From NCBI RefSeq assembly GCF_030867095.1, contig NC_081826.1:254242251-254306250 (forward strand): a stretch of 64,000 nt of DNA, in the 5' to 3' direction. The stretch comes from Alligator mississippiensis (lineage: Eukaryota; Chordata; Crocodylia; Alligatoridae). The notes below the pieces were generated by a model. The model was given only the letters and a program-made list of their open reading frames with translations. It made no database searches and had not been told where the DNA came from. Position numbers and translations under genes: made by a program. Below, in pieces: positions 1-64,000 of this stretch. Numbering within the stretch: position 1 is the stretch's first letter; every line of letters starts with the position of its first letter.

Positions 1-410
1 AGAAGCAAAATGGAGCCAGTATTTTCAATCCATATTGTGTTTGTACTTCACTAATGGCCAGTGCACTCTAGTCCTCTGTTAGTGTGCGTTGTGGGGATGA
101 GAAATGTCTGTGTCTTCCTTTTTCCCCCAGATTAACCAGGAGTATAGGAACAGATAGAATGAAGATTGTCATTCCTGTATGCCAGCACCCCATGTCCCAA
201 GAGGAGAGTCCAAGGTTCTGAAACAAGCACCCTTTCTAAAGCATAGTTCCTTTTTAGTGTTGTTCTGGAGCAGCACTGTTGCATGCTAAACCTAGAGGCT
301 CAGTTTGGTGCTGATGCTTTACTGGCTTCAGGATGAGTAGTAAAACTCTCTACTATTTTGTTATGCATCTGTGAAGGGTTAAACTTCAGAGAGATTGTTT
401 CTTTTAACAG

Positions 411-3075
<2,665 letters not shown>

Positions 3076-12232: not shown

Positions 12233-14596
12233 CAGGACCTCCACCTGACTCAGGAGGTACACGGTCCCACTAGGGGGAATGCCATACTGGATCTGGTATT
12301 GGCAACAGGAGATGACATGGTAGCGGACCTCCAGATCGGTAGCCATTAGGGGACAGTGATCACCTAATAATAAAATTCACCATAAGACGGCGAGTGGGTA
12401 AGGTAACTAGTAGGGTGAAAGTGCTAGACTTTAGGAAAGCTGATTTCAATGAACTCAGGCGATTAGTCAAGGACGCACTGCAGAGTAGGAGATTTGAAGA
12501 GATGGAAGCCCAAGAAGGGTGGCTGTGCCTTAAGGAAACGATCCTTTGGGCACAAAGCAAGACGATCCCCGAGTGAGGCAAAAGAGGGAAAGGGGCCAGG
12601 AGGCTTCCCTGGCTGACCAGAGAAATCCAGAGCAGCCTAAGGGCCAAAAGGGGAGCACATAAAAAGTGGAAACAGGGAGAGATCACCAAAGATGAATATA
12701 CCTCCTCTGCTCGTGCTTGTAGGGAGCCAGTTAGACGGGCCAAAGCTACCATGGAGCTGAGGATGGCAACCCAAGTAAAAGACAACAAGAAATTTTTTTT
12801 AGATATATAGGGAGTAAAAGGAAGGCCCAGGGAGGAATAGGACCCCTGCTAAATGGGCAGAAACAATTGGTGACAGACAAGGGGGACAAGGCTGAACTCC
12901 TCAACGAGTTCTTTGCCTCAGTGTTCCTAAGCGAGGGGCATGACAAGTCTCTCACTGGGGTTGTAGAGAGGCAGCAGCAAGGCGCCAGACTTCCATGCGT
13001 AGACCCTGAGATGGTGCAGAGTCATTTGGAAGAACTGGATGCCTTTAAGTCGGCAGCCCTGGATGAGTTCCATCCAAGGGTGCTGAAGGCACTGGCCGAT
13101 GTCATTGTAGAGCCACTGTCGGGAATATCTGAAAGCTCGTGGCGCACGGGCCAAGTCCCGGAGGACTGGAAAAAGGCCAACGTGGTCCCCATTTTCAAGA
13201 AGGGGAGGAAGGAGGACCCGGGCAACTATAGACCTGTCAGTCTCACCTCCATCCTTGGCAAAGTATTTGAAAAAATTATCAAGGCTCACATTTGTGAGAG
13301 CCCGGCAGGACAAATTATGCTGAGGGGAAATCAGCACGGGTTTGTGGCAGGCAGATCGTGCCTGATCAATCTAGTTTCTTTTTATGACCAGGTTACGAAA
13401 CGCCTGGACACAGGAGGAGGGGTGGATGTCGTATACTTAGACTTCAGGAAGGCCTTCGATACGGTATCCCACCCCATACTGGTGAACAAGTTAAGAGGCT
13501 GTGACTTGGATGACTACACAGTCCGGTGGGTGGCGAATTGGCTGGAGGGTCGCACCCAGAGAGTCGTGGTGGATGGGTCGGTTTCGACCTGGAAGGGTGT
13601 GGGCAGTGGGGTCCCACAGGGCTCGGTCCTTGGACCGATAATCTTTAATGTCTTCATCAGTGACTTGGACAAGGGAGTCAAATGTACTCTGTCCAAGTTT
13701 GCAGATGACACAAAGCTATGGGGAGATGTGGACATGCCGGAGGGCAGGGAACAGCTGCAAGCAGACCTGGACAAGTTGGACAAGTGGGCAGAAAACAACA
13801 GAATGCAGTTCAACAAGGAGAAATACAAAGTGCTGCACCTAGGGAGGAAGAATGTCCAGCACACCTACAGCCTAGGGAATGACCTGCTGGGTAGCACGGA
13901 AGTGGAAAGGGATCTTGGAGTCCTAGTGGACTCCAAGATGAACATGAGTCGGCAGTGTGACGAAGCCATCAAAAAAGCCAATGGCACTTTATCGTGCATC
14001 AGCAGATGCATGACGAATAGGTCCAAGGAGGTGATACTTCCTCTCTATCGGGCGCTGGTCAGACCGCAGTTGGAGTACTGCGTGCAATTCTGGGCACCGC
14101 AATTCAAGAGGAATGCAGATAACCTGGAGAGAGTCCAGAGGAGGGCCACTCGTATGGTTAAGGGCCTGCGGACCAAGCCCTATGAGGAGAGACTAGAGAA
14201 ACTGGATCTTTTCAGCCTCCGCAAGAGAAGGTTGAGAGGCGACCTTGTGGCTGCCTATAAGTTCATCACGGGGGCACAGAAGGGAATTGGTGAGTATTTA
14301 TTCACCAAGGCGCCCCCGGGGGTTACAAGAAATAATGGCCATAAGCTAGCAGAGAGCAGATTTGGATTGGACATTAGGAAGAACTTCTTCACAGTTCGAG
14401 TGGCCAAGGTCTGGAATGGGCTCCCAAGGGAGGTGGTGCTCTCCCCAACCCTGGGGGTCTTCAAGAGGAGGTTAGATGAGCATCTAGCTGGGGTCATCTA
14501 GACCCAGCACTCTTTCCTGCTTATGCAGGGGGTCGGACTTGATGATCTATTGAGGTCCCTTCCGACCCTAACATCTATGAATCTATGAATCTATGG
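12233..14596 (+). mobile_element. CR1 LINE, 5'-truncated, ORF2 reverse transcriptase nearly intact
   Basis: The fragment starts in the C-terminal part of the endonuclease (AILDLVLATGDDMVADLQIG) and runs through the reverse transcriptase to the 3' end. Stops lie in the first part (a TGA near 12574) and a frame shift lies at the T run near 12800. From there the frame is open for over 560 codons. RT landmarks in order are NVVPIFKKGRKEDPGNYRPV, GFVAGRSC, VVYLDFRKAFDTVSHP (motif A), GVPQGSVLGP (motif B) and [11 protein letters not shown] (motif C), ending EHLAGVI and TAG at 14499-14501. The 3' UTR is about 95 nt and ends in three ATCTATGA-type octamers at 14573-14596. The sparse damage marks a young copy. 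It copies itself by target-primed reverse transcription. Confidence 0.95.
12867..14501 (+). CDS. CR1 ORF2 reverse transcriptase, open part (544 codons)
   Basis: A continuous frame encodes the whole RT palm and the thumb/C-terminal region of a CR1 ORF2. The catalytic aspartates are visible as LDFRKAFD and FADD. The C-terminal region (RPQLEYCVQFWAPQF, ERVQRRATRMVKG, FSLRKRRLRGDLVAAYKF) is the conserved CR1 tail. The ATG at 12867 is only the first methionine after the frame break; upstream codons in this frame (GSKRKAQGGIGPLLNG) also belong to ORF2. It is not a host gene. Confidence 0.93.
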   Translation: MVTDKGDKAELLNEFFASVFLSEGHDKSLTGVVERQQQGARLPCVDPEMVQSHLEELDAFKSAALDEFHPRVLKALADVIVEPLSGISESSWRTGQVPEDWKKANVVPIFKKGRKEDPGNYRPVSLTSILGKVFEKIIKAHICESPAGQIMLRGNQHGFVAGRSCLINLVSFYDQVTKRLDTGGGVDVVYLDFRKAFDTVSHPILVNKLRGCDLDDYTVRWVANWLEGRTQRVVVDGSVSTWKGVGSGVPQGSVLGPIIFNVFISDLDKGVKCTLSKFADDTKLWGDVDMPEGREQLQADLDKLDKWAENNRMQFNKEKYKVLHLGRKNVQHTYSLGNDLLGSTEVERDLGVLVDSKMNMSRQCDEAIKKANGTLSCISRCMTNRSKEVILPLYRALVRPQLEYCVQFWAPQFKRNADNLERVQRRATRMVKGLRTKPYEERLEKLDLFSLRKRRLRGDLVAAYKFITGAQKGIGEYLFTKAPPGVTRNNGHKLAESRFGLDIRKNFFTVRVAKVWNGLPREVVLSPTLGVFKRRLDEHLAGVI

Positions 14597-19350: not shown

Positions 19351-21032
19351 GTGGCATCTTTACATTTGTTCTGGAGGTGGCGGTGGGGGAGGGGGCTTTA
19401 ATAAGATGGACGCTTACAGCATCTCATGTATTCAGCATCCTGTGCTTCAAAAAGATGGGGGGGGGGGGGGTGCTTTAACTAGTTTGAAGCATTGAAGCAT
19501 GGAGATGCTGAATACATGAGAGGCGGAGGCTGCTGGAGCATGCTAATTAGCACACAGATTAATAGATACTATGGTCAGAAGGGACCTCAACAGATCATCG
19601 AGTCCGACCCCCTGCCTAGGCAGGAAAGAGTGCAGGGGTCAGATGACCCCAGCCGGATACCTATCCAGCCTTCTCTTAAAGACCCCCAAGGTAGGGAAGA
19701 GCACCACCTCCCTTGGGAACCCATTCCAAATTTGGCCACTCTTACCACGAAGTTTTTCCTGATGTCTAGCCTAAATCTGCTCTCTGTCAGTTTGTGACTA
19801 TTGTTCCTTGTTACCCCAAGAGAAGCCCTCATGAACAGAGCATCTCCGATCCCTTTCTGCATTCCCCTAATGAATTTGTAGGCGACCACAAGATCACCTC
19901 TTAGCCTTCTCTTGCAGAGGCTGAAGAGGTCCAGGTCCCTCAGTCTCTCCTCATAGGGCTTGACCTGTAAGCCCCTAACCATACGAGTGGCCCTCCCCTG
20001 GATCCTCTCAACTCTATCAACATCCTTCTTGAAGTACGGCGCCCAAAACTAGACACAGTACTCCAACTGCGGTCTGACCAATGCCGCATAGGGGGGAAGT
20101 ATCACCTCTTTGGTTCTATTTGTCATGCATCTGCTGATGCATGATAAAGTGCACTTAGCTTTGCTAATGATTTCGTCACACTGATGACTCATGTTCATCT
20201 TGGAGTCCACTATGACTCTGAGATCTCTTTCCGCTTCTGTGCTGCTGAGAGGGTCACTTCCCAGCCAGTAGATGTGCTGGATATTTTTGCACCCTAGGTG
20301 CAAGCACTCTGCATTTGTCCTTGTTGTACTGCATCCTATTGTGTACTGTCCACTTTTCTAACCTATCCAGGTCCGTCTGCAATCGTTCCCTACCCTCCGG
20401 ATTGTGCACTTCACACCACAATTTATTATCGTCCGCAAACTTGGACAGAGTACACGTCACACCCACATCCAAGTCACTGATGAAGACATTGAAGAGTACA
20501 GGTCCAAGGACCGAACCCTGCAGGACCCCACTACCCACATCCTTCCAGTTCGATACTGACCTGTCTATTACCACTCTCCTGTGTGCGACTGCTAAGCCAA
20601 TTTGCCACCTGTTGGACTGTGTAAACATCTATGTCACAGCCTTTTAATTTATTTGTGAGAATAGGATGAGATACCGTATCGAAGGCCTTCCTAAAATCCA
20701 AGAAAATGACATCCACTCTACTCCTGCGTCTAAGCGTTTTGTGACCCTGTCATAAAATGAAACCAGATTGGTTAGGCATGATCTACCTGCTATGAATACA
20801 TGCTGGTTGCCCTGTTGCATTATTTTTCCCACTGGACTCCCACAAATATGATCCTTCATAATCTTTTCAAAGAACTTTCCAAGGATGGAGGTGAGACTGG
20901 CTGGTCTACTATTACTTGCCAGAATTACTGGCCTATAATTACTCCAGCAGACTCAATTAATCAAGTCTGCTCCAATGTGCTGTAATTACAGTGCATCGGA
21001 GTAGCATTTCCAAATGTCTACAGGCATCCTAG
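19351..21032. repeat. MITE interrupted by a CR1 LINE
   Basis: Left part 19351-19555 and right part about 20943-21032 together match the intact copy at 2213-2529 (GATGCTGAATACATGAGA, GCATGCTAATTAGC, then CAGCAGACTCAATTAATC, TGTCTACAGGCATCC). The CR1 lies exactly where the copy is broken. The MITE is therefore older than this CR1. Confidence 0.7.
19556..20942 (-). mobile_element. CR1 LINE, 5'-truncated, minus strand
   Basis: On the minus strand it shows ORF2 from just inside the RT domain (ISGNY-like start near 20930, then FIAGRSCLTNLVSFYDRV, IFLDFRKAFDTVSHP, VLQGSVLGPVLFNVFISDLD, SKFADDNKLW) to the 3' tail and the signature GAGGTCCCTTCTGACCATAG. Several frame breaks separate the pieces. Sequence is clearly more diverged than the copies at 12233 and 51184, so it is older or from another subfamily. 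Confidence 0.9.
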
Positions 21033-22425: not shown

Positions 22426-24049
22426 AAAAGACAGATACCAGCATCATGCCGCCTCATCCAACTGTTTTAAAGTGCTCATTTTGTGAGGGATCCTAGCCTG
22501 CTTGGTGCTTGTTTTACAAGCTCTGAGAACGCAGAGCAAATCATGCTAGGCAGAGCCAATGACTAGTTTCTGGACCATGAGAAGGTTTAGGTGAAGAACA
22601 GCACTGAACTGAGATGAGCAGTTCTAGGCGTGCACAAGAGTGTAGAGGAAATGTGACTATCAAGCAGGTGTTTAGTTGCTTTCAGAGTTAGGTGGCAACT
22701 GAGCAGTGGTATTTTAGATCCAAATTTTTAATTTAGATGCCTCAGTTTTGCCAAAATCCTTTGCTGGATCTAGACCATAGATCAAAGTACATTTTCCAAC
22801 CTTGGCTTAAGAAAGAAGGAATTAATATGGCCAGAGGTTTCAATTACTTTCACAGGCCAAGACAATCGATTTGTATCCCACATTTGACTACAGTAAACAG
22901 GATAGACATGCCATAATAGACAGCAGAGTATGAGCTATGGGCAACTGGTGCCTCCTGAGTCAGCGGCCAGTCAGTAACCATGGTGGGTCCCCCAGCAGCC
23001 TATTGCACTGACTGGGAAACATGAGCGGTGCTCCTGGAAATGCCAGCAGCGCCTCTCCTGGCACCCCCACTACCCAGCTGGTGCTTGCAGGGGGCACACC
23101 AGCGCTCCCGCCTGCCCCCCTGCCCATTGCCTAAGCGGGGAGTGCTGCCTGTCAGGGGGTGCACCAGCGCTCTCAGGGGGTGCATGTACATGTCACCACT
23201 GGTATGAGCTGTCTTCCTTATACACATTAGTATAAGCTAAGTGAAACCATTACATTTAATAACAAAGCAAAGCATTAGTCATCCATGAAAATAACTTTAT
23301 GGAGACAAACATTCATTGTCTATCATCAATTTTAGATTGTCCATCCACCAAGAAATTGAAAAAATCTGCAATTGGAGTCTAAAACAAAATTTCTAGATAA
23401 CAAAAGACATGGGAATTGGTACAACTGTGGGCCACTCTTCCTGAAGATATCCATTTAAGCTAAGTTTTGTTACAGGCTTCTGTTAGAAACAGGAGAAGAC
23501 AGAGGCCTACAGAAGCTACAACAGACAGAAAGGTAAGCAGAAATAATAGCATAAATATAGTATGTTGTAATCAATTTCTGTTCAATGTAACCAGTTGTGT
23601 TAGGACACTCAAAATGAGGCATGGCACAGGTGTGGTACTGTGCTGCGAAACCTGAGCTGGTTGTAAGCTCATTAGGTTTGTTCAAATAAAAACGAAGAAA
23701 AAAAGGACTGAAACGAAACGGCATCAGTGGGAAGGGCAGCTGAGATAACTAGAGAAGGGCCCCAATTGCAAATCCGTCTGACTGAAAAGGTGAAGTGAAG
23801 AGGCAAGGATTTCCCAGGGCAGCCTCTTTTATTGGACCACCTGCTTGGTTGAGAGGAAGCTGGACAGGCGTTGGGGGGCGCGGTGCTCTTCCTCAGCATG
23901 AAAACATTTGTAAATCAGGAGTTGAACTACAGAGGCGTTGCTCAGGAGAAGTGTAGGGAAGTTTGGTGTCCCAAGAGAAACTCTCTCGGGAGACATTTAA
24001 CTCTGGTTGCTCCCGGGTTATTTCTCTCTCTCAGACACTTTTTCTGGTG
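22426..24049. other. Intergenic, no gene recognised
   Basis: Ordinary DNA upstream of the MED18 CpG island, with a GC-rich repeat-like patch at about 22930-23200. The latter contains 'GTGCACCAGCGCTC' twice. No host exon is supported. Confidence 0.35.
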
Positions 24050-24645
24050 AAATCGACGATTTTGCAGGGCACGGAGGTGGGGGCGGGCAGCGCGAGGCGG
24101 GCGCTGCAGCTTTGCCGGCTGCCAGGGCCCTTGGCGGGGTTCACAAAACAGCGGCGTGCCCAGGGCACGAGCTTAAGCGGATGAGGTAGGAAGAAATGTC
24201 AGGACCCTGCGCTGGCGGGGCAGACAGGGCGGGGGTTACTGGCTGAAGGGCGCGAACCGCGCGTACCCGGATTGGGCAGCAGCGGCCGTGGGGGCAGGGC
24301 CGAGGGCCCGCGGCGGTTGGCCTCCGGATGCTGAATAACGGCGAGGTGACATGGCCCCGCCCCCAGGAGCGCGCGAGTCACCAGGCGCCCGCCTCCCAGC
24401 TGGCAGCTTCCCTAGGGCTCGCGGGCGGCGCAGGACAGGCCCCGCCCCCGGCCGGAGAACCCCACCCCCGGACTCCGCCCCCGCCGCCTCCCATTGGCGC
24501 GGAGACGGCGGCGCATGCGCACCAGGTTTGGACGCGCTTGGAACCCTCCCACCCCCATCCTCGGCCGAGTGTGCGCATGCGCCCTGCCCGAGCTGTCGAG
24601 CGACTACCTCTGCCCCCCCACAGCCGAGCTAGGTGGCCGGGCAGC
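24050..24645 (+). promoter_or_regulatory. MED18: CpG-island promoter of MED18 with two NRF1-type sites
   Basis: GC and CpG content jump from about 24050 and fall again after exon 1. GGCGCATGCGCA at 24510-24521 and TGCGCATGCGCC at 24572-24583 fit the NRF1 palindrome (YGCGCATGCGCR) in its core. An inverted CCAAT box (ATTGG) lies at 24493-24497. There is no TATA box. This is the usual promoter type of housekeeping genes. Transcription start is likely at 24580-24640, by inference from spacing. Confidence 0.75.
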
Positions 24646-24718
24646 ATGGAGGCGCCGCCGGTCACCATGATGCCCGTCACGGGCGGCACCATCAACATGA
24701 TGGAGTACCTGCTCCAAG
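24646..24718 (+). CDS. MED18: MED18 exon 1
   Basis: 73 nt, 24 codons plus 1 nt; donor GTGAGC at 24719. The frame stays open far upstream of the ATG and past the donor, but the protein family starts at MEAPPV, so this ATG is chosen. Confidence 0.95.
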
Positions 24719-25738
24719 GTGAGCCCAGCCCCGGCCCGCGCTGCCTGGGGCGGCCCGAGCCCCCGCCTTCCAGCTGGGAAGAAACCGGCTGCGGGTTGGC
24801 ACAGTGCTCAGGCAGTGCACGAGGTGGGCAGGGCCTGGGCTCAGAGAGACGGGCAGGCTACATGTATTGCGTAGTTGAGCCATTAATTGCGCGATGTATG
24901 TAACCGGCGGGGGACGGGACAGGCGGCCTTGGACGGCCAGACTAACAAAAGCTGGCAGGGCCAGCGCTGACACTGTGCACCTTTATTTCTTCAAGTAATT
25001 AAGTTCCCTGCTGCTTTCAGGAAAAAAGAGCCTGGTGTTTTAAACCTCAAGGCAACAGACTGCTCCCTTGTGAAGCCGGGGTGGAGGAGGGGTTTCTGGG
25101 CAATCTTGTGCCAATAGAGGAGAGGAAAGGGCATGGGTGTTCGTGAACTGGTGAGCAGTGACGTTTCCGGTCTGTCTTCTCCAGGGAGCGTTCTGGATCA
25201 AAGCCTAGAGAGTCTCCTCCATCGGCTGCGGGGCCTGTGCGACAACATGGAACCGGAGACGTTCCTCGATCACGAGATGGTGTTTCTCCTCAAGGGGCAG
25301 CAAGCCAGCCCCTTTGTGCTGAGGGCACGGCGCTCGATGGACAAAACAGGCATGCCCTGGCACTTGCGCTACCTGGGCCAGCCAGAAATAGGAGACAAAA
25401 ACCGCCATGCTCTGGTCCGTAACTGCGTAGATATTGCCACCTCGGAGAACCTGACCGACTTCCTGGTGGAGATGGGCTTCCGTATGGACCATGAATTCGT
25501 TGCCAAGGGCCACGTATTCCGCAAGGGCATCATGAAGATTGTGGTATACAAGATCTTTCGCATCCTGATGCCAGGAAACACTGAAAGTATAGAGCCCTTG
25601 TCTCTCTCATACCTTGTAGAGCTGAGTGTAGTGGCACCAGCAGGTCAGGACATGGTTTCTGATGATATGAGGAACTTTGCTGAGCAGCTGAAACCATTAG
25701 TGCACTTGGAGAAAATTGACCCTAAAAGGTTAATGTGA
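24646..25738 (+). CDS. MED18: MED18, Mediator complex subunit 18, complete (2 exons, 208 aa)
   Basis: MED18 is a head-module subunit of Mediator, which links transcription factors to RNA polymerase II in the nucleus; it pairs with MED20. Exon 1 (24646-24718) encodes MEAPPVTMMPVTGGTINMME, then YLLQ. Exon 2 (25185-25738) begins GSVLDQSLESLLHRLRGLCD and ends HLEKIDPKRLM and TGA. The join gives 208 codons, the length I recall for human MED18, with only scattered substitutions against the human sequence as I remember it (for example MDKTGMPWHL for human MDRAGAPWHL). The start has a strong context (A at -3, G at +4). The gene has its intron and promoter, so it is not a processed copy. It lies between HMGCR and CERT1, where human has no MED18. 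Confidence 0.97.
25185..25738 (+). CDS. MED18: MED18 exon 2 with stop
   Basis: The acceptor is TCTTCTCCAG, and the exon has 554 nt. It holds nearly the whole beta-barrel protein, including ETFLDHEMVFLLKGQQASPF, GDKNRHALVRNCVDIATSEN and LSYLVELSVVAPAGQDMVSD. AATAAA overlaps the stop codon (25738-25743). A second AATAAA at 25925-25930 is the more likely poly(A) signal. Confidence 0.96.
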
Positions 25739-25950
25739 ATAAAAAGCAGTCATGGGTGTTGCAGACCACTTTGGTTCAGGGTCATAATGACCTGCCTCCT
25801 TAAACTGTTCTTACAAAATACCTCTTGCAAGATTAAAGCTAGGGGCCAGGAATTATTTGGTATTTAGTTTTGTCACTCTGATAATTGACAGTTTGGGGTA
25901 ATTTGTTGTTATAGGGTAGCTGTGAATAAAAGATGTTTGAAAACAGCTTA
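25739..25950 (+). other. MED18: Probable MED18 3' UTR
   Basis: About 0.2 kb of non-repetitive sequence follows the stop, with AATAAA at 25925. A longer form cannot be excluded. Confidence 0.5.
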
Positions 25951-26799
25951 AAAGCAATTCTTTCAAATGAAATTCTAAGCAGTATGAGGAAAGGCATTTA
26001 ACATAAGTTTGTATTAGCATTCCTGCCCCTCCAGAGTGCGTATGTGTACACGCACACACACTAATACTAGAACAGGGAGCATACAATGCCAAGTTTGAAG
26101 ACATTTAACTTATGTAATACTGCTTCCCCAGTAGCGTATGTTTGCATGCCTTTTCAACAGTTGTACTTTTGTTGCTCTTGAATGCTGTAATATTCAGGTT
26201 CCAGGTTTTAAAACAATGTTCTCAAGCTATTAAAAAAAAAAAGATTCCATCCTGACATCTGGGGTTTTGGAAAAGCTCTTTGGGGGTGGAGAGAGAGAAA
26301 AAGAAAAAACAAAACAAAAATCAGGATTTTTAGCCGCAAGTGTACTTCATAATACTTTAAAATCTGCAGTTAGGAATACAGTCAAACACCTCACAGTCTG
26401 ATTGCTTCATGAAAGTCAAGCATCGCAATGCCCAACTGTTGCACGTGTTGGAGTGAATACAATGGATGGGGGTTGGGTATTTATAGTATTAGAGCAATTT
26501 ATAAAACTAAGATGAGATGATTTATTATAAGAGTACTGCAAGAGTGGTTTATTTTGATTGCAATTGGTTTCCCATTTTCTCTTTCAGTATTTATAAATCA
26601 AACCCTATCCTACAGCTCCATGGGATTTGTATTTAGTATAAAATATTTAATTTTAGCAATGAAAACTCTCAAATGCACACACTCCACCACAAGGGCTATT
26701 TTTTCATTAAAAACCTAGGCATTAAATCTAATGTGCCTAAGGCTTCTGACCTGTTACTTTTGTAGCGCTACAAAGTTTGTAATAATACAAAACATCACT
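25951..26799. other. No feature recognised
   Basis: AT-rich intergenic DNA with short A-rich runs (near 26230 and 26300). Confidence 0.35.
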
Positions 26800-27400
26800 G
26801 TGGGGTATATACATCTACACAGACCCCTGGCTGGAGCATGACAAAGTCACCACAAAGGCTTGTTCTCTAGCCAGGGGAAAATAGGGGGCTGCTCCTTAAA
26901 CCTCCATCTCCACAAGGAAGGCCCATCAGTGAGCAAGACAGGCTTGCCTGTTTAGCTATTCCCATCATAGCAACAGGCGGCAGAGCTGCCCACAAGCCAT
27001 CTGTGGTGACAAGGGCTGATTGGGCAGTCTCTGCCCCCTTGTCAGCCTTTGCCCTACTTCAGCCATTGGCAGCTGTTGCCATCATTTCAACAGATGATGA
27101 GCTGGTCTTAAGCCACCCACAGCAGCAAGGGCTGATCAGGCAGTAGAGACTCCTGCTGTCACTGTTGCCCCTGCTAGTACCCTGGCTCTTCCCTTGGGCT
27201 CTAGCAGTAGCAGCAGTTGTGCGAGCAGCAGTGGGGATGCCATAGGAACGCCTGCCAGTTGTGGTGGCAGTAGTAGGGTCCCTGCAGGCCTCCCCCAAGT
27301 TTGCCATCTGGGCAAGCAATTTAGGGAGACAGTCATTCTTCCTGCTTCTCCCTTGCAGGGGTGAGGTGGGAAGGGCAAGCAGAGCTCACTGGAATACCAT
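26800..27400. repeat. GC-rich MITE-like block with a diverged internal duplication
   Basis: It opens GGGGTATATACATCTACACA, close to the GGG..TCTACA ends of other MITEs here. Inside, 'GCCACCCACAGCAGCAAGGGCTGATCAGG' style sequence near 27110 repeats an earlier version near 26995 ('CAAGGGCTGATTGGGCAGT'). The right end is unclear. Confidence 0.35.

Positions 27401-46813: not shown

Positions 46814-64000
<17,187 letters not shown>

Follow-up and report, generated by a model that had tools for sequence, protein, structure and literature searches.

A single MED18 gene relocated to the interval between HMGCR and CERT1 in the alligator genome

MED18 and its neighbours in the window

The window, a stretch of 64,000 nucleotides from the genome of Alligator mississippiensis (contig C3, positions 254242251-254306250), contains no N and holds the 3' parts of HMGCR and CERT1. 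An intact two-exon MED18 gene (24646-25738, plus strand, 208 codons) is placed between the stop codons of the two, at 3073 on the plus strand and 46816 on the minus strand. The features are as follows.

408 to 3075, plus strand: 3' coding exons of HMGCR (open reading frames, PDB match, stop codon at 3073)
24000 to 24999 (about), unstranded: CpG island over the presumed promoter and first exon of MED18 (CpG observed/expected ratio)
24511 to 24520, plus strand: candidate NRF1-like palindromic core, GCGCATGCGC (motif scan)
24573 to 24582, plus strand: second candidate NRF1-like core, GCGCATGCGC (motif scan)
24646 to 24718, plus strand: MED18 coding exon 1 (start codon at 24646)
24719 to 25184, plus strand: MED18 intron of 466 bp (GT donor at 24719, AG acceptor ending at 25184)
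25185 to 25738, plus strand: MED18 coding exon 2 with the stop codon (profile, PDB alignment, splicing, Pfam)
25738 to 26234, plus strand: four candidate poly(A) signals, at 25738, 25832, 25925 and 26229 (from sequence only)
46814 to 57162, minus strand: 3' part of CERT1, with two START-domain exons and a C-terminal exon (stop at 46816)

Two joined exon pieces of HMGCR matched solved HMG-CoA reductase in the PDB at 1.1e-60, and the START-domain exons of CERT1 matched solved CERT. The C-terminal exon that ends at 46816 was recognised by short words of protein sequence, and we take it to belong to CERT1. The two genes thus surround MED18 tail to tail, as the first-pass annotation had described. 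In human they presumably also stand tail to tail, with no MED18 between them. The 3' ends of human HMGCR and CERT1 almost meet or overlap; the distance from stop to stop in the window is about 43.7 kb.

The window also contains three LINE-like stretches, which we take by resemblance to be CR1. That at 12735-14498 (plus strand) has an open frame of 588 amino acids with a reverse transcriptase domain above the Pfam cut-off, that at 51121-52107 (minus strand) gave a weak Pfam match below the cut-off, and that at 19590-20048 (minus strand) gave no Pfam match. An open frame of 167 amino acids at 49034-49534 (minus strand) had no Pfam match at 0.001; by eye it resembles the C-terminal part of a site-specific LINE, presumably R2-like.

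The spliced coding sequence of MED18 comprises 627 nucleotides and translates into exactly the 208 residues. This product matched the Pfam Med18 family at 2e-49 (score 169.1 bits, cut-off 21), and its residues 1-208 aligned to residues 1-208 of solved mammalian MED18 chains in the PDB, with 195 of the 208 residues identical to one of these chains. Splicing, Pfam and the PDB alignment therefore agree on the intact gene with its intron and 208-codon frame that had been read from the letters at the outset, and its coordinates hold. The product is presumably an ordinary Mediator head subunit of unchanged function.

Upstream of the gene, the ratio of observed to expected CpG was 0.67-0.90 in all five 200-bp bins of 24000-24999, compared with 0.256 for the whole window, in agreement with the CpG promoter that the first-pass annotation had attributed to MED18 and that is here predicted from sequence. 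Two copies of GCGCATGCGC, which we take to be the core of the NRF1 motif, are found 64-135 bp ahead of the MED18 start codon, with 62 bp from the start of one to the start of the other. No further copy occurs in the 64 kb, where whole-window shuffles gave an expectation of 0.02. When 24050-24700 was simulated 20,000 times with a first-order Markov model, at least one copy was obtained in 161 simulations and two copies in none.

Copy number and the SESN2-PHACTR block

We searched the whole genome (2,346,462,532 bases, or 2.35 Gb, in 195 contigs) for every MED18 locus, and only that of the window was found. The Med18 profile gave one match, the window gene, among the two best candidates scored. 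A DNA search with 24050-25738 also gave one match, its own locus, with one best candidate scored. The best MED18 match outside the window gene had an E value of 2.1 and was located on contig C8. A DNA-level duplication with promoter, which had been one of the options at the start, is not supported, given the single copy in both the profile and the DNA searches and the failure to find any copy at the old site. Transfer of the 3' flank from another place was also considered and set aside, since the 1022 bases that follow the stop codon matched themselves alone genome-wide (one candidate scored).

The old site is defined by the order of genes in mammals. In published lists, goat chromosome 2 carries SESN2, MED18, PHACTR4 and RCC1 in this order, with small RNA genes between them (PMC11874128), and the list for human chromosome 1 has the same order of the four genes (PMC4231109). 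MED18 is displaced in the alligator relative to human, as the first-pass annotation held.

In the alligator, a sestrin gene taken as SESN2 is located on the minus strand of contig C6 (2248167-2252240). Two of its exons scored about 229-233 bits (229.3-232.8) against solved Sestrin-2 chains, the corresponding exons of the other three sestrins scored 203.7-206.4, 180.2-182.7 and 161.1-162.7 bits, and the gene on C6 was named SESN2 because its score was the best of the four. RPEL exons of a PHACTR-family gene, to which the name PHACTR4 is given by position, lie in the same orientation as SESN2 at C6:2148268-2159183 (minus strand), with about 89 kb separating the closest exons detected for the two genes. 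The sestrin on contig C8 (83153200-83156389), which by eye stands beside a FOXO-like gene, was set aside as a candidate for SESN2 after the comparison of scores. It is a fourth sestrin in this genome; mammals have three.

Between these genes, in contiguous tiles free of N (C6:2150001-2260000), there was no match to MED18 better than E 2.4. The power of the search was gauged with simulated copies of exon 2 that differed by substitutions only, set in 30 kb of C6 sequence and searched in a small database of their own at a cut-off of E 0.5. Recovery was complete (20 of 20 copies) at each of 20, 30, 35, 40 and 45% divergence and fell to 9 of 20 at 50%. Judged by this substitution-only control, no remnant of MED18 was found between SESN2 and PHACTR on C6. 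The same tiles contained 15 CpG-island-like runs, none of which could be linked to MED18, and no NRF1-like core. The old neighbours SESN2 and PHACTR are still together, and MED18 is undetectable between them. The gene has thus been relocated rather than duplicated.

SESN2-PHACTR4 and TAF12-TRNAU1AP are near each other in mammals. In the alligator, TAF12 and TRNAU1AP were found near C6:10.2 Mb (10.18-10.23 Mb), 8 Mb from SESN2-PHACTR4 (2.15-2.25 Mb), which indicates that the old MED18 block has been broken by a further rearrangement too. Neither RCC1 nor ATP5IF1 had a convincing match in a motif scan of the stretches examined. A second TRNAU1AP-like match, with an in-frame TGA in one of its pieces, occurs at C3:130942936-130944603; RPEL exons lie about 0.3 Mb away, at C3:131.24-131.34 Mb. 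This neighbourhood mirrors that of PHACTR4 and TRNAU1AP in mammals, and the two are perhaps a pair left by an old whole-genome duplication.

Direction and age of the move

The position of MED18 between HMGCR and CERT1 is derived, not ancestral. In the zebrafish Ensembl list as printed, cert1a (+1) stands immediately before hmgcra (-1), without an intervening med18, and the word med18 has no occurrence in the main text of that paper (PMC9210284). An order common to all reptiles and fish, by which the first-pass annotation would have recognised an ancestral arrangement, is thus not what the zebrafish list has. A predicted ancestral amniote block places med18 beside rcc1 (PMC3880147). The insertion is considered derived because mammals and one fish agree in having no MED18 at HMGCR-CERT1, the papers at hand covering this one fish, two mammals and the predicted amniote block.

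As for the age, the same lizard paper, from 2013, mentions incidentally that med18 of chicken lies on Z (PMC3880147), and the abstract of another paper puts the split between birds and crocodiles at about 240 million years (PMC11632352). Because chicken MED18 is on Z, the move most likely dates from the ancestor shared by birds and crocodilians, or from earlier. It is probably as old as the archosaurs, or older, and common to birds, and we infer that the bird and alligator moves are one event; a single shared move in the bird-alligator ancestor is the simplest account. The lineage-specific relocation suggested in the first-pass annotation thus stands as to kind, while the lineage was most likely the archosaurs or a larger group and not the crocodilians alone.

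The chicken evidence gives the chromosome, not adjacency to HMGCR, and would therefore also suit separate moves in birds and in the alligator lineage, or a move in the alligator lineage only with the chicken Z position unrelated to it. We consider this unlikely. Chicken HMGCR, like MED18, is on Z, and we presume that the gene sets paired with a POLK-HMGCR set in a chicken SNP-interaction table are those of chromosome 7. The pairing then fits a location of HMGCR on chicken Z, since the SNP table has pairs of chromosome 7 with Z (PMC6813082).

Mode of the move and comparison with known relocations

Taken together, it is very likely that a DNA-level move took the sole MED18, as a small unit, from between SESN2 and PHACTR4 to the gap between HMGCR and CERT1 and that the old copy was lost, most likely in the bird-crocodilian ancestor or earlier. 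The unit would have consisted of the promoter, both coding exons with the intron, and the 3' end. The loss of the old copy may have followed copying (copy-then-loss) or been part of a cut-and-paste transfer, and at its new site the gene would later have been carried on the avian Z.

Human MED18 is among the common oestrogen- and NRF1-target genes in the lists of one paper (PMC5187886). In combination with this listing, the two NRF1-like cores upstream of the alligator gene suggest, short of proof, that the ancestral promoter came along with MED18, which at the new site is presumably driven from its own CpG promoter. A search of 23000-27200 for repeats of at least 14 bases revealed neither a junction nor a target-site duplication, and no carrier element. 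The short direct repeats in this segment fall into two families, both within 23088-23184 and neither bracketing MED18, and there are three inverted repeat pairs. A target-site duplication is not expected to survive, since the move is so old.

Both the intron and the island, which resembles a promoter, speak against a processed retrocopy. The first-pass annotation had likewise excluded an ordinary one, rightly so given that a GT-AG intron of 466 bp interrupts the coding frame. A retrocopy could nevertheless have been made from an intron-retaining transcript begun upstream of the usual start and have then replaced its parent, and a run of 11 A (26232-26242) does lie after a poly(A) signal. Such an origin is quite unlikely, because the CpG island and two NRF1-like cores stand upstream of the start codon, no direct repeat of at least 14 bases brackets the gene in 23000-27200, and a poly(A) tail of that age should have decayed.

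It is highly improbable that the order HMGCR-MED18-CERT1 is ancestral and that mammals moved MED18. The comparison takes in the zebrafish, goat and human orders only, but the adjoining cert1a and hmgcra of zebrafish, where med18 is absent from the main text (PMC9210284), and the predicted amniote block with med18 beside rcc1 (PMC3880147), both speak against it. An assembly join or misplacement, with the true location of MED18 elsewhere, had been raised at the outset and is barely credible, although the case is built on assembled sequence: there is no N in the 64 kb, MED18 is single copy, the old site (likewise free of N) yielded no MED18, and chicken, an independent assembly, also has MED18 off the old block, on Z (PMC3880147).

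The small chance of an intron-retaining retrocopy and the reliance on assembled sequence from one archosaur lower the confidence in the mechanism of the DNA-level move and in its shared age, while confidence in the relocation as such is unaffected. It is likely, in our assessment, that an ancestor of archosaur age or earlier saw this broadly needed Mediator gene move onto an autosome from which the avian Z later arose, that MED18 has since been exposed to dosage effects as a Z-linked gene in birds, and that its position is a rare marker that dates the move. If this is true, MED18 between HMGCR and CERT1 could be used as a rare genomic marker for archosaurs and to test the placement of turtles, and the move would account for the Z-linkage of MED18 in chicken. 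The relocation has already been noticed in part in print, through the remark on chicken med18 (PMC3880147); a search of the open-licence literature gave no description of MED18 between HMGCR and CERT1. We regard the move as a piece of genome history, with no pointer to a new molecular system, and as a clean case in which a housekeeping gene has moved, apparently with its promoter, and left nothing detectable behind.

Three comparisons place the alligator gene among known systems. Mammalian MED18 is likewise a protein of 208 residues, 195 of which are identical between one mammalian chain and the window product, but it sits in the order SESN2-MED18-PHACTR4, whereas the alligator keeps those neighbours without MED18. 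The Z-linked MED18 of chicken resembles that of alligator in lying away from the ancestral rcc1 block; for chicken the passages on MED18 report the chromosome alone (PMC3880147), whereas the alligator assembly shows both the new neighbours, HMGCR and CERT1, and an old site emptied of MED18. As in the general class of single-gene positional relocations at the DNA level, one intact gene with its intron stands at a new site and nothing was found at the old one, but here no junction or carrier element was found by which to name the mechanism. The MED18 move is a well-anchored instance of this known type of event.
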